This document shows positions 1 through 28,406 of a DNA stretch of 64,000 nt, one piece after another. This DNA is from Auricularia sp. M13. Lineage: Eukaryota > Basidiomycota > Agaricomycetes > Auriculariales > Auriculariaceae. The notes beneath the pieces are model-generated. The model was not told where the DNA came from. It saw only the letters and a list, made by a program, of their open reading frames with translations, and made no database searches. The stretch spans positions 3,596,001 through 3,660,000 of the forward strand of contig CM073198.1 of NCBI GenBank assembly GCA_037042915.1, written 5' to 3'. Both the position numbers and the translations under genes were made by a program. The stretch's first letter is position 1; the number at the start of each line of letters is the position of its first letter.

Positions 1-1815
1 GTCGAGGCACAGCAGCGCGTTCAGCCACTTCTCCACGTTGTCGCCCGCGCTGTACCGGATGGGCGTCTCCAGCTTGATCTCGCGCAGCGCGCGCGTCTTC
101 CCCGCTGCGCCCGCCGCCTTCGCCTTCTTGGACGTCCCCGCGGAGGCGGAGGCGGACGTGTCTGCGGCGGCAGGTGCGTCCTTCGTGAGCGTCGGCCGCG
201 TGGACTCGCGCAGCTGCTGGATGAGCTTCAGCGAGAGCGAGCGGCCGGTGCCCTCGTAGCCGTTGATCGTCGACGCCATGAAGATGAGGTACGGGCCCAT
301 CAGGTTGCGCACGAGCGGCAGCGGGATCGCCGCGGCCTCGTCTATCACGACGAGCTCGGCCTGCCCGAGTACATGCGCGTCTTGCGGTTGGATGTACTGC
401 GCTCTTTACTCAGCCCTGAACATTCTAGATTTGCGGGGAGGGGCAAGCGCACCTGAATGGTCTGCCGGTGGTCCCGGAAGACGTTCACGCGCACGATGGC
501 CTTGTTGAACTCGGGGTTCGTGCTCTGCGCGATGTCGTAGTCGAGGTGCTCCTCGTAACCCAGCGCATCGAGCCCCTTGAAGACGAACTCGAACAGCGTC
601 TTCAAGTTCTCCGGGCTCGGGCTGGTTACGAAAATGTTCGAGTAGCCGTGCGCGAGCGCGGCGGCGATGGCGAGGCCCAGGGCAGCCGATTTGCCGCGCC
701 CGCGCGCGGCGGTCAGGGTCACTGTGGACGACAACGTCTTCTCGGCGATGGCATCGACGAACGTAAGCAGCGCTTGCGCCTGAAGACGGCCAGGGTCAGG
801 CCAACCGAGCGCGAATTGCGTTGTACAAGTTTTGACGTACCTGATCCACCGTTTTGGCGAGCTTGGCGAGCTCGCCGATTGGTTTGGTGTCGGCGAGACT
901 CTCCTTGAGGTCTTTCAGTTGGTCCTCGGCTTTGTCCTTGCCCTTGCCGGTCTCGATGGGCTGAATATCCTTGCCGCGAGATATAGGTAATACGTTTAGC
1001 TCGTCGTCTAGGACAAGGCAGTCGTCGCAGGAGCCGAGAGAAAGGATAAAACGCTCGTTGAACCGTGCAATGACGGAATCATGAGACGAAGTGCGGTAGC
1101 GAGCGTGCACGTCCTGCGTATTGTCAGCATGATACGGTCTCTATGAGCAGCCGTACGCACCATGGTCATCGTGTAAAGCTGTTTCAGCGATGACATAGTT
1201 TTAAGGAGCAAGACGATGAGGCCGCCTCCCTCGACAGTCTCAATCGTCCGCGCGAGCAGGTTGGGCGTTAAAGCTTCGAAGTCTTGCAGAACGCACATTC
1301 CATAGGTGTTGCCCAGAATCTTTTGCGAGTCCTTATAGTATCTGGTGGGAGGCCGTTCATTCGAACGTTGAAACTCACAAGCGACAGTGCACGCACGTGT
1401 ATCGAATATCCGTGACAGTAACGAATATCTCGAAAGGATCCTGCTCGTTGGGTTCGCGGACGCCACGCTTCACATCGCGCTTTATTTTGGCCTCGCGTTT
1501 CTTGCGGTGGCTGAAGCAGCCATGTCAGTGAACCGTTGCGGCATGCACGACGCGTCGCCGCACCTCGTAAAGCCGAGCTCCTTCTTGTAGCACCAAAGCA
1601 CAGAAGGACGGGCTGATACCCTAGCCTGGGATAACAGAAAATGCAGGTTTACTATCTGCAGGTCGGTATACGCGTGAGCAAATGGCTGGTAGGCGAGCGA
1701 CCGTTCGCACCTGGTCTCGCCCCTTGTCGCCGACCAGCACGATGAAGGAGCGGTGGTTGAGCTTGACATTGTTGTTGATGAGCGTAGGTATACGCGGGTC
1801 GAGCTGCTTCCGCAT
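1..1815 (-). CDS. KRE33: RNA cytidine acetyltransferase KRE33/NAT10, 5' part (runs off the window)
   Basis: This enzyme makes N4-acetylcytidine in 18S rRNA and in tRNA (with a THUMP-domain adaptor) and acts in the nucleolus during small-subunit assembly. The start at 1815 gives MRKQLDPRIPTLINNNVKLN, the usual family N-terminus. Exon 1 is 1711-1815, exon 2 begins at 1655, and later exons carry LGNTYGMCVLQDFEALTPN, RTIETVEGGGLIVLLLKTMS and FNERFILSLGS. The helicase-like module follows, with a Walker A-type TAARGRGKSAALG near 720-680, then SNIFVTSPSPENLKTLFEF and, after a further intron, VVIDEAAAIPLP. About 430 residues of a protein usually near 1,050 are present. The GNAT acetyltransferase and tRNA-binding parts lie beyond base 1. 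All introns seen are short GT-AG introns that rejoin conserved text in frame, so the part present looks intact. Confidence 0.95.
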
Positions 1816-4800
1816 TCTTCAGCGTATCGCGCAAAAAGAAAGCAGTCAAAGATTTTCAGCCGGTGGCAGTGTGCCAATCCGGCTTGGACTCTGACTGCGA
1901 CATCGACTGGAGACCGGATGACGACTCCTGGCTTGACTACTGTGCCGGAAAAATCTCTGTGCTAGGAACCTGGGGCTCTAAGATTCGTTTTGCGGACCGT
2001 TGCTTCTTCTCGAGTTCTGGTACCTCCGGTCCTGGAAAAAAAAGGTGCCTTCATCAAAGACATCGCGCACGCGATTCTGCCCGTGGCGCTTGTCATAATC
2101 CGAAGTATCCCAGGTCCGCCGTGGGCTCTGTAACTGGGCTGCTTGACGGGCCGTTCTCCAATTATCTTCGTCCAGGGCAAATTCATCTTGTCGTCCGGGT
2201 CTGCATATTTTCCAAGCGAGCTCCATTCGCTCCTCACGGTGGAGGAGGCTAGCAATTTCTTTCTGGCCTGTCAAACCACGGCGGAGGGTTTGGCGAACTT
2301 GACGGCGGTGATAGCTTTTGCGTACGCGACGGCGGCGCGGCGCGGCATGCAGGCCCCGGAACGACAGCCGTGGCTTGTGGATGATGATCTCGACGTCGAT
2401 GGATTCGCCGGCATATCCTATGACCATACTTTCCACCTCTACGACTCATACATTAAGGGCCCGCGGACGTCAAGAGACCGGTGACCGCCTTCTAATGCGC
2501 TGAGCATGGGCCTCGTCTGCCTTCCATCATCACCGTGGCTGCTTCCCCCGCACCAGCATCAGACATCGCACTCGTATCTCGCCGAGGACGGGACGCCCGG
2601 TGTTGTCCTTCCACGTACGCCTTCTGCTGCGGACACGTCCGCATCCGCTGTAGCACCAAAGAATGCCTATTGCGTAGCCCTCTCTCTTTGCGATCTGGTT
2701 CAACGTTGGTCCCGCCCTCTACAAGTCTTGGCTCATGATGACGCACCGGGGCCTCGCCGCACTGCAGCTACGAATAGATTTACACTCTGCGACACACGTG
2801 AATCTATTTGAGCCGAAATACAGTACTCACCGCAGCCGCTGCGACCGGAGTCACTGTGCCTTGATTCCGTGCTGTATCACGTCGACGGTCGGGCCTCCAC
2901 GTGAAGCCAGCTACTCCGGTAACTTCCCAGCGCACCGGTTCCCCACATTCGAATTACGAACACCTGTGAATTGTTATGGCTTCTACTGTACCGTACGATC
3001 CTCGCGCACGCAATTCCCTCTGCCTGGATCTTCGCTTTCTGACGGCCGATTGGTACGCATCCAAGGGCTGTAAGACCGATGCTGTAATCCTTATCCGTGT
3101 CGCCCCGGTGATGCGTCTTGTGCACGTGGCCGGCGTGTCGAGGGAGCTGAGTGATGAAGGCTAGAACTTGATGCACTACCGGGGCTGCGGGAATCCTTTG
3201 TCCACGAAGGTTTGTGTCCCACAGCGTGCGGCGCTCTTGTGCATCGCGGGACAAAATCCAGTCCCCAACTGGGTAGTAGATTATCAGCAATCAAGACCAC
3301 GAAACAGACAAGTCTGGATATATCCTATGACGACGGGGTCCATGTGGGGCGCAGTCGAAAACAGGAAAGAGATCATAATCTGGAGATCACCGAAAATGAT
3401 CCTATCTGGGTCTTCCTTTTATCTAATCTCCGTATCCGGTTTAATCTAAACAGCCCTCCGGTGCATAAACCCTGAGGACTGTACGTGTAAGGCTTGTCCG
3501 GCTCGCGTAGATATCGCAGGAATGCCGACTTTCAGGTTCTGTTTTGCTGCAGAAAACCGGCCCCCTGTCGCGCATTCCTGGGCCTGGAAACCGTCGTCCG
3601 CATGGATGGATATGCAATATGAGAGGTACACGTTGCGGGGGGCTGGAGTTCGGTTCATGTATCGCCCGGAGATCATTTAGGCCCTCCAGGCAGGTTTCTT
3701 CCCACGATTTACCCCACATACCCTTCCAAGGCATACAGTTGGCGTGAAGTACAGTCTCGCTTATGCAGTCTGAAACTGTGCACAGCCCACCGATCGTTCA
3801 GCCAGTAATCGGCGCAGTCGGCAGCGCGTTGTTGAGTCCGTCAGCCCTGAGCGAGGTCACCGATAGCCTGAGAACTGCCTGAGAGCAAGCAAATGGTCGC
3901 GATGCCGGACCGGGTCGATCTCTGTCTCTCCGTCTCCTTCTGCCCAGAGGGAAGTTTGAAGTTAGAAAGTCTCTGTTTTGGGATCTACAGGGACCCTGTG
4001 GACGGTTGTATGCGCCTGGCCGCGCACAGCTTGCCATCGCATTTCTAATCCTTTTTCAGCATTTCCATTCTCGGGTGTAGGGAGGATCATGGGCGAAAGA
4101 GCGCTAGCTCAGCCGACAAGCGGACGGAGCGCCTATTGATTCCCTCAAGCATCTTCACGCCGGAAATCCGCGGTGTATGGCCCGTGTTTCAGCTCACTCC
4201 AGTGCAGTAAAGATGGCCGCGCGCTCTGCGGAGGTAATGTTGACGTACGTGGATGCATGCGACTCTCACGAGTGGCCGAATGGACCAGTTGCCGGGTCAT
4301 GAAGACTTCTGTGGGAGGACTGAGATTGAGAGAACACGAGCATGGTGTAGGTCCGAACTGATTAAAGGGGTTCTGATTCATCATGTCCGATAAGAACCAC
4401 CTTCTCTCACCGTCAAAACCAATGCTCCCGGCACCGAGACCACACTTCCAAACCGGTGGATCGGGAGACGGCGTGCGCCGCGATCATACCCAGGAGTGTG
4501 AAAGCTTGACAGACACTACAGCGACGGAACCGTGGTCCCCTCGATGGTAACAGTGCGGAGAGACCGCCCGACGCGACACTGGGCAACGAAACAGCGCACC
4601 GCCGCCAATGGGCGTAAGGGGATTGCGACATGTCCACATCCGGTATATCTTGCAGCGATCTGATTGCTTCGCCGAGATCACGGCAGAAGCGCCGTCACAC
4701 CTCACGGATTTGATGACCCAGACATCATGGAACATGCCAAAATTTGTCACGCGGCGCGCTGCACCTAAATAGCGGTCATGCTGCGAGCTCATGAAGACAG

Positions 4801-26099: not shown

Positions 26100-28406
26100 C
26101 TAGGCCTGCACCCCTCCAGCGGCCTTCGAGAGTTTCCCAACCATGAATTCCCACACAGTCTTGCGAACTTCCTCCCGCTTGCTCGCAGGGGAGGGACTGA
26201 TGCGTTTGCCATTGTACCACCACTGCGAGCCGACCGCGTCAGTGCCGACGCGCTGCACGCCCTCCGGGTTCGCGACGAGGAAGAACGGGATATGCGCGTA
26301 TTCCTCGGGCGTGGTCCCGACGAACACTTCGATCAGCCGCGAGAGCGACTTCCATATGGATGCGATGTTGGCGGAGCCGAGCGCTTGCGTCTTGACCATC
26401 CCTGGGTGGAGATGGAGGAAGCGGACGGACGGCGCGCGTTGAGCGAGTTCCTAAATCCTCAGTGAGCAGCCGCTCGAGAATAGGCGCACCCTAGGCCACC
26501 TCACCTGCCACAGCGAGTCGATCACAGTGCAGTCGCGCACGCCAGCAGCTACATCGGGAAAACGCTCCGTTACTTGGGAGTATCCCGGAGCCTCCCGGAG
26601 TCGTGAAGTGATGGGAGCTCGGTTAGCGCCTGGCGGGGTCACCAAAACTCCGGGAGTCAGCCAGAGCTCCGGGAGTGGCGACCGGCTCGGGCAGCTCTGC
26701 TTTCAATTCTTTTCTTTACTTGCAATACACACGAACAGATTACAAATCAAAACCAAGTTATATTGCAAAAAACTACCAAAGACTCTACACATAGTATCTC
26801 CCGTGCACGTACTCGGGATCATGGCGCGTCGCTCGCGTTAGCGCGTCCGCTCGACAAACTGGAACATGTTCTAAAGCATATATCAGATGAGCACTGCGGC
26901 GATAATGAGAAAAAAAACGTGCCTGACTGTTGACCACTGCTACAGTTGAAGCTTGTACTTGACCGTATGGCACACGAGACGCGGCGAGGGTGCAATACCT
27001 AAGAATCAAATCGTAGTGAGTATAACTTCCATGCAGAGCTCCTAGTTCAGAGCCCAGAGAATCAGTGCAAGTGCAAGCCAAGAATGAGAGCCAGAACCAG
27101 AAACCGCGAGCACCAAGAAGAACCAAATGAGCCCACAGTCAAAGCCCGGAGCATCTAAGCCAGCAGCAGGAAAATCAGAGCAGTACAGCCAGAACGAGCA
27201 TGCGGGGCAATCAGAGTCCAGATGCTGCAGCTGCGACGGGGCGGCTCGCGGCGGTAACCTCGCCGATGAGCGGCGGCGACCTGCGGCGGGGAAGAGGACG
27301 GGGGCATTTTAGACTCCGCCCAGCACAGCGCCAGCATATGTGACCGGCCATGTGGGCGGACTTCTAAAAGGTTCCGGCGCCCACCCCGCCACAAGCTCAA
27401 GCCTCCTAAGTCAGCGATTCTGCTCGAAATTTTATGTTTTTTGAGACTGCGTGAAAAAGCAATATTTCATGGTTATAAGCACATTTATGAGCCATCTTTT
27501 TTTTCGAGTTCTTGACCGTGGCATCTCCGCTCGCAAGTAATGTGATGACTCCGGCAAGAACGTCCTTTTCGACGCCTTTTGCAACGGATAGCACACTTGC
27601 ACTGCCGACACCAACTTGGACACGGGCTTGCACTCGGCTGATGCTGAATTGATGGGCGGCATAATTAAACGTGTGCTCCCAACACTTTGCGGACTCCCGG
27701 AGCTCCCAGAGTTGCTGGGCATCTTGCAACGACTCCCGGAGTAGCTGGAGCGCGGCTTGCTCCGAAGCCGTTTTCCCGATGTATCATCCCGTAGCTTCCG
27801 TTCTTCTTCAGTTTCTCAAGCGTAATGTCCTCCGGATCGAACGACGCCCTCCCCACGCCCGCGCACGCAATCGCCACGACGGCGCGCTTGACCACGGGCT
27901 GGGAGATTGTGAGACGGTAGGCGAGCGCGAAGCGCGAGACGACCTGCACGGCGAAGTGCGTGTCGAAGCCGTCCGCGTTCGGCGCGATGTCTTCGCGGTC
28001 CGCGGGCCCGCCCTGCGTTTCCAGAAGGTAGTCGACTCCGCCTTCGCCCGCGGCCTCTGCGACTTCCTTCGCCACGCGCTCGACATCCGCCAGCGCGCTG
28101 AGGTCGGCCTGGAAGAATCGGAAGTCTGGCTTTGCATCTGACTGCGGAGCGGCGTTCTTGAGCTTGTCGAGCGCTGCTTGACCTGCCGGTGCGAGATTGG
28201 GTGAGACATTGCTACAACATATGTGCATTATTGGAGAGGTGCTTACCAGACACCTTGTTGCGGCCGATGATCCAGACATCCGCACCGGCTTTTGCAAACT
28301 GCAAGGCGATACCGAGACCGATGCCCTGCGTCGCTCCCGACACGACTGCGCGCTGGCCGCGAAGTCTCACTTTGTTGTTTGACTCGATAATTGCAGAGGA
28401 AGGCAT
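26100..28406 (-). pseudogene. Short-chain dehydrogenase/reductase gene split by a DNA transposon
   Basis: SDR enzymes are Rossmann-fold NAD(P)-dependent oxidoreductases. Exon 1 starts MPSSAIIESNNKVRLRGQRA and carries VVSGATQGIGLGIALQ (the TGxxxGxG-type cofactor motif; here SGATQGIG). After an intron (GTAAGC...GGCAG) come LDKLKNAAPQ, FFQADLSALADVERVAKEVA, VDYLLETQGG and LEKLKKNGSYGM. At that point the 1,230 bp element 26552-27781 intervenes. Beyond it, on the same strand, the gene resumes as AAGVRDCTVIDSLWQ, then ELAQRAPSVRFLHLHPGMVK, and ends KLSKAAGGVQA at 26100. Removing the element with one TA copy rejoins GSYGM and IAAGVRD in frame, so the gene was intact before insertion. No other break was seen, which argues for a recent event. 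Unless the element is spliced out of the mRNA, the product is truncated. Confidence 0.85.
26552..27781. mobile_element. Non-autonomous DNA transposon, TA target duplication
   Basis: The element is 1,230 bp. The ends are perfect 13-bp inverted repeats, CATCGGGAAAACG at 26552-26564 and its complement at 27769-27781. It is flanked by TA on both sides (26550-26551 and 27782-27783). Inside each end are several copies of a CTCCGGGAG-type motif (left near 26580-26690, right near 27690-27740), a subterminal repeat pattern that may bind transposase. No transposase-like frame is present; internal frames are short and unrecognised. TA duplication is typical of the Tc1/mariner (including pogo/Fot) superfamily, but assignment is by inference. 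It interrupts the SDR gene within a coding exon. Confidence 0.85.

Follow-up and report, generated by a model that had tools for sequence, protein, structure and literature searches.

The window, a 64,000-nt stretch (C6:3596001-3660000) of a 52-Mb genome in 14 contigs, carries a short-chain dehydrogenase (SDR) gene on its minus strand, running from an ATG at 28406 to a stop codon at 26100. The presence of spliced genes and of Plavaka transposons suggests that the genome is that of a basidiomycete fungus. Exon 1 (28247..28406, minus) matches the Pfam adh_short domain at E 1.1e-5 and 25.5 bits, slightly below the cut-off of 26.6, and is followed by a 64-bp intron (28183-28246, minus; GTAAGC...CAG). 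Exon 2 lies in two minus-strand segments, 27784..28182 and 26505..26549 (AAGVRDCTVIDSLWQ), held apart by a long interval. A second intron, of 54 bp (26451-26504, minus; GTGAGG...TAG), leads to exon 3 with the stop codon (26100..26450, minus). The first segment of exon 2 is 60-66% identical to three paralogues, the second ends at the same residue as the exon of paralogue L088, and exon 3 resembles exon 3 of that paralogue. Exons 2 and 3 of the interrupted gene, each searched apart, gave no Pfam match. An intact paralogue scores above the adh_short cut-off (E 1.7e-13), and its matches to solved SDR enzymes are weak (best E 2.8e-7).

The interval is bounded by a perfect 15-nt inverted repeat, TACATCGGGAAAACG at 26550-26564 and CGTTTTCCCGATGTA at 27769-27783, each arm of which consists of a 13-nt element end and a TA. 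The left terminal inverted repeat, CATCGGGAAAACG, occupies 26552..26564 on the plus strand, and the right one, which reads CATCGGGAAAACG on the minus strand, occupies 27769..27781; the two TA copies of the target-site duplication lie at 26550..26551 and 27782..27783. With the TAs excluded, the element spans 26552..27781, without assigned strand, and is 1,230 bp long. The arms bear out the length, the perfect 13-bp inverted ends and the coordinates given in an earlier, sequence-only reading of this DNA. A genome-wide search for the Plavaka transposase domain (PF18759) returned no match inside the element.

The minus-strand host frame reads ...EKLKKNGSYGM ahead of the element and AAGVRDCTVIDSLW beyond it. 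As it stands, the frame continues for 38 residues into the element and then meets a stop, and from this stop we infer that the function of the interrupted gene has probably been lost. A genome search with the first part of exon 2 gave 11 matches, one of them the query, and the three best paralogues (66, 61 and 60% identity) and a fourth, L093, were compared at the junction. The three are intact, lie on contig C1 and have the sequences EKLKKKGWYSLLPVAARDCT, ERLKKTGGYSFLPAAARDCT and EKAKKMGKYSMYQAMTRDCT there. In these three the spacing from KK to RDC is 11 residues with no intron at the site, and in L093 the spacing differs. The shared spacing and the lack of an intron indicate that removal of the element together with one TA would restore the frame. 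This upholds what had been proposed from the sequence, namely that an SDR coding exon is split after GSYGM and that the gene is regained when the element and one TA are lost; three paralogues have exactly the expected number of residues, 11. The isoleucine in the joined protein proposed earlier is encoded by an A of the host and the TA left behind. The consequence for the host is probably small, because it still has at least three close paralogues that are intact.

A rival reading takes the interval as an intron, in which case the element would be spliced out and the gene would still work. The TA duplication and the next host base form TAG at the 3' junction (26551-26549, minus), a possible acceptor. 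However, a scan in the gene sense for donors of the GTRNGH form found none between 27866, within the exon, and 27596, past the first in-frame stop inside the element. The other introns of the gene are 64 and 54 bp long and the three paralogues have no intron at this site, both of which make splicing of 1.2 kb unlikely. Judged from these sequence features, an intron is very improbable, and the earlier suggestion that the element might be spliced from the mRNA is not supported, no GTRNGH donor being found near the 5' junction.

The genome search for the same 13-bp ends that the sequence-only reading had called for revealed a family. The 52-Mb genome contains 49 copies of the 13-nt end CATCRGGAAAACG, in which position 5 is A or G, and none of its reversed control; 39 of the 49 ends begin CATCA and 10 begin CATCG. 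Thirty-five ends fall in 18 paired elements, and the other 14 are single. Seventeen of the pairs are exact and use 34 of the 49 ends, while one further end pairs with an end that has one mismatch. A search that allowed one mismatch throughout gave 207 matches versus 80 in the reversed control and serves as a lead only.

An exact 2-bp target duplication flanks 16 of the 18 paired elements (TT and CA four times each, AA and TG three times each, CG and TA once each). The pairs at C1:5331998 and C9:3191289 have no matching duplication, and a 3-bp match was found in none of the 18. When the right flanks of 17 pairs were shuffled 100,000 times, the matches averaged 2.9 and never exceeded 11, as against 15 observed. 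These flanks bear on whether the insertion is a miniature element of Tc1/mariner or another TA-specific type. Tc1/mariner MITEs are short, have short inverted ends and duplicate a TA target. The window element is likewise short, with short inverted ends, and the window copy has TA on either side; TA occurs in that copy alone, however, and the other 15 of the 16 duplications are TT, CA, AA, TG or CG. The non-TA duplications show that the element is not TA-specific, which makes a Tc1/mariner or similar origin exceedingly improbable. The TA duplication reported earlier is thus present on both sides of the window copy but is no family trait.

The nearest copies of the window element are at C11:2525583 (91% identity) and C3:2180806 (93-95% identity), with remoter relatives on contigs C1 and C10. 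The insertion had been called recent, which the open host exons and the intact element ends support only indirectly, and identity to the closest copies stands at 91-95%. A closer pair exists in another subfamily, where the elements at C8:1767051 and C11:2444748 (L020 and L022), which lie in opposite orientation, show complete identity over 1,265 bp but have differing flanks and duplications (AA and CA). Identity of this extent at different sites indicates recent movement of the end family, and this pair is the latest movement observed in it.

The C3:2180806 copy (L010) aligns in three pieces, divided by two later insertions. One, at element bases 415-791 (C3:2181220-2181596), is a nested element of 377 bp, flanked by a TA duplication; its perfect inverted repeat is 26 bp long and starts AGATAGGCCCGG. 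The other, at element bases about 1154-3828 (C3:2181959-2184633), is likewise nested and 2.7 kb long. Its ends are CACCCGAGGGTCTAAACACCGG and its duplication, CCCAGCGC, measures 8 bp, as is described for hAT and Zisupton elements (PMC12730594).

Inside the terminal repeats, the window element carries seven copies of a near-palindrome, CTCCSGGAG (one mismatch allowed), in its outer parts and none in its middle. On the left, motifs lie at element positions 31 and 41 (ATCCCGGAG and CTCCCGGAG, 26582..26600) and at 97 and 116 (CTCCGGGAG twice, 26648..26675). On the right they lie 41, 71 and 80 bp from the end (CTCCCGGAG, CTCCCAGAG and CTCCCGGAG as read on the plus strand, 27694..27741). The same concentration holds for the family: the ends of 17 elements contain 69 motifs in 6,800 bp, compared with one in 16,966 bp of interior examined in 16 of them. 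The 64,000 bp of the whole window contain 19, those of the element among them.

The motifs also keep set distances from the ends, with position clusters at 31 (12 times), 41 (19 times) and 79-80 (13 times). Eleven of the 17 elements have a motif at 31 in one end and motifs at 41 and 79-80 in the other; the window element is one of the 11, with an extra 41 on the left. The 31/41/80 array is missing from the elements at C1:1805104, C1:6916492 and C4:2865202, one of which has just one motif, at 130. The 18th element, at C11:3181819, also has one motif only, at 51. Motif positions in different copies are not independent, since the copies share ancestry. They are nonetheless common to subfamilies whose interiors do not align. 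Set distances to the ends are what would be expected of transposase-binding sites, for which the arrays are candidates.

Arrays of this kind invite comparison with CACTA/EnSpm elements, which have CA..TG ends, short duplications and arrays of short repeats within the ends, and whose short non-autonomous derivatives are deleted copies moved in trans. Subterminal repeats are a CACTA/EnSpm trait; the terminal letters of the group are CACTA or CACTG and its duplication is 3 bp. The window family shares the CA..TG ends, the short duplications and the subterminal repeat arrays, but its ends are CATCR and its duplications are 2 bp, with no 3-bp match in the 18 pairs. A member of the wider CACTA/EnSpm-Mirage-Chapaev (CMC) group that is not Plavaka but has CA..TG ends and subterminal repeats like these is an unlikely but not negligible reading. 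The subterminal repeats are there, no element with exact ends encloses a Plavaka match, and the termini and duplications fit the clade, most of which has CA..TG termini and 2-5 bp duplications according to PMC12730594. Against this, CATCA is the published terminus of PlavakaB in the same text (PMC12730594), and the genome holds 87 Plavaka domain matches and one Plavaka-bearing element with similar ends. In weighing Plavaka against other CMC transposases, the Plavaka domain was the only one searched.

Several lines of evidence connect the family to Plavaka. PlavakaB families, DNA transposons of Agaricomycotina, are described in PMC12730594 as having 2 or 3 bp duplications and termini CATCA..TGATG, and Plavaka transposases as similar to EnSpm transposases. 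The terminus agrees at the family level, where 39 of 49 ends are CATCA; both ends of the window element start CATCG, one letter different from the published CATCA. The duplication agrees as well, at 2 bp in 16 of the 18 pairs. The 87 Plavaka domain matches in the genome are exon-level matches with E no higher than 0.001, with five falling under the curated cut-off, and their count is to be taken as a lower bound; the domain was found in none of 14 control genomes. The likeness to PlavakaB comprises CATCA..TGATG-type termini, 2-bp duplications and Plavaka domains in the same genome. The differences are that the window element shows no transposase and that the CTCCSGGAG array goes unmentioned in the main text of PMC12730594, from which the word "subterminal" is absent.

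A Plavaka-bearing element with related ends lies on contig C3. It starts at C3:1319792 with CATCAGGAAAACC, and 1.6 kb inward is a PF18759 match with E 8.3e-80. A second copy, on C5, is 85% identical, and the alignment of the two ceases exactly at the first letter of CATCAGG, which fixes the left end of the C3 element. Its likely right end, at C3:1327581, is CATCGGGAAAAACC, picked among four candidates by its likeness and its GC flank, which matches that at the left end to give a GC/GC duplication; an element with these chosen ends is 7,790 bp long. The left end agrees with CATCAGGAAAACG at 12 of 13 positions and with the end of the window element at 11 of 13. For the C5 copy, no left end was found in the 2.5 kb examined. 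When 30 Plavaka loci were scanned, none showed paired CATCR ends with a 2-bp duplication; the ends of the C3 and C5 copies emerged only from a wider reading than that scan. A follow-up end pattern gave three matches (0 in the control), the third on contig C4.

A scan of the two ends of the 7.8-kb element, over 169 and 250 bp, found no CTCCSGGAG, and the missing motif makes this element a relative and not the proven partner. No PF18759 match lies between exact pairs of CATCRGGAAAACG ends anywhere in the genome; the nearest inward match to an exact end is 7.6 kb off, past that element's own other end. The autonomous partner is therefore missing, diverged or overlooked. Because PF18759 is found neither in the window element nor between exact-end pairs, the element is called only non-autonomous with PlavakaB-type ends. 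The suggestion that it could be mobile in trans is plausible, as it has no Plavaka match inside and the family includes 1,265-bp identical copies on different contigs, but an exact autonomous partner was not found.

Taken together, the interval is very probably a DNA transposon of the cut-and-paste kind, non-autonomous and bearing PlavakaB-type ends, inserted in exon 2 of a member of the SDR gene family. In the proposed mechanism, a Plavaka-type transposase made elsewhere would bind the CATCRGGAAAACG ends as well as the CTCCSGGAG motifs arrayed next to them, excise the element and insert it at a 2-bp staggered target; insertion in the SDR exon would have duplicated those 2 bp, here TA. We infer that the transposase that moves the window element is of Plavaka type. 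A wider interpretation is put forward tentatively, at somewhat less than even confidence: the family may be a recently active, undescribed set of non-autonomous Plavaka derivatives in which an asymmetric, position-locked subterminal code lets a Plavaka transposase tell one end from the other.

The event itself, a mobile element breaking a gene, is ordinary. The case is a clean one, in which a non-coding element has broken a fungal gene. Through it, at least 18 short elements of a single genome are tied as a family to the Plavaka group. Literature searches found few descriptions of Plavaka ends, no description of a non-autonomous Plavaka derivative set of this kind, and nothing linking Plavaka with MITE; the single Plavaka passage seen in PMC9674265 concerns a deletion. 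Searches on Plavaka subterminal motifs, and on subterminal repeats, CACTA and transposase binding in basidiomycetes, likewise returned nothing. Of the new details, the most useful is the fixed placing of the subterminal motifs. A position-locked motif of this sort is a testable candidate for the transposase binding site and, if the proposal is true, would be the first description of DNA signals read by a Plavaka transposase.

The single ends of the family were also surveyed, the inward 1.5 kb being examined at 9 of the 14 and open frames of 120 codons or more listed. Three of them (L036, L049 and L052) have their first 199 bp in common (98-99.5%) and form another subfamily, one that lacks the CTCCSGGAG array. 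L036 and L049 are alike over about 1.25 kb (96.5%), and L052 departs from the shared 199-bp end into other open frames. Another lone end, L042 (C4:51990-52002), lies about 52 kb from the start of its contig, and inward of it are tandem TTAGG units that form a telomere-like tract.
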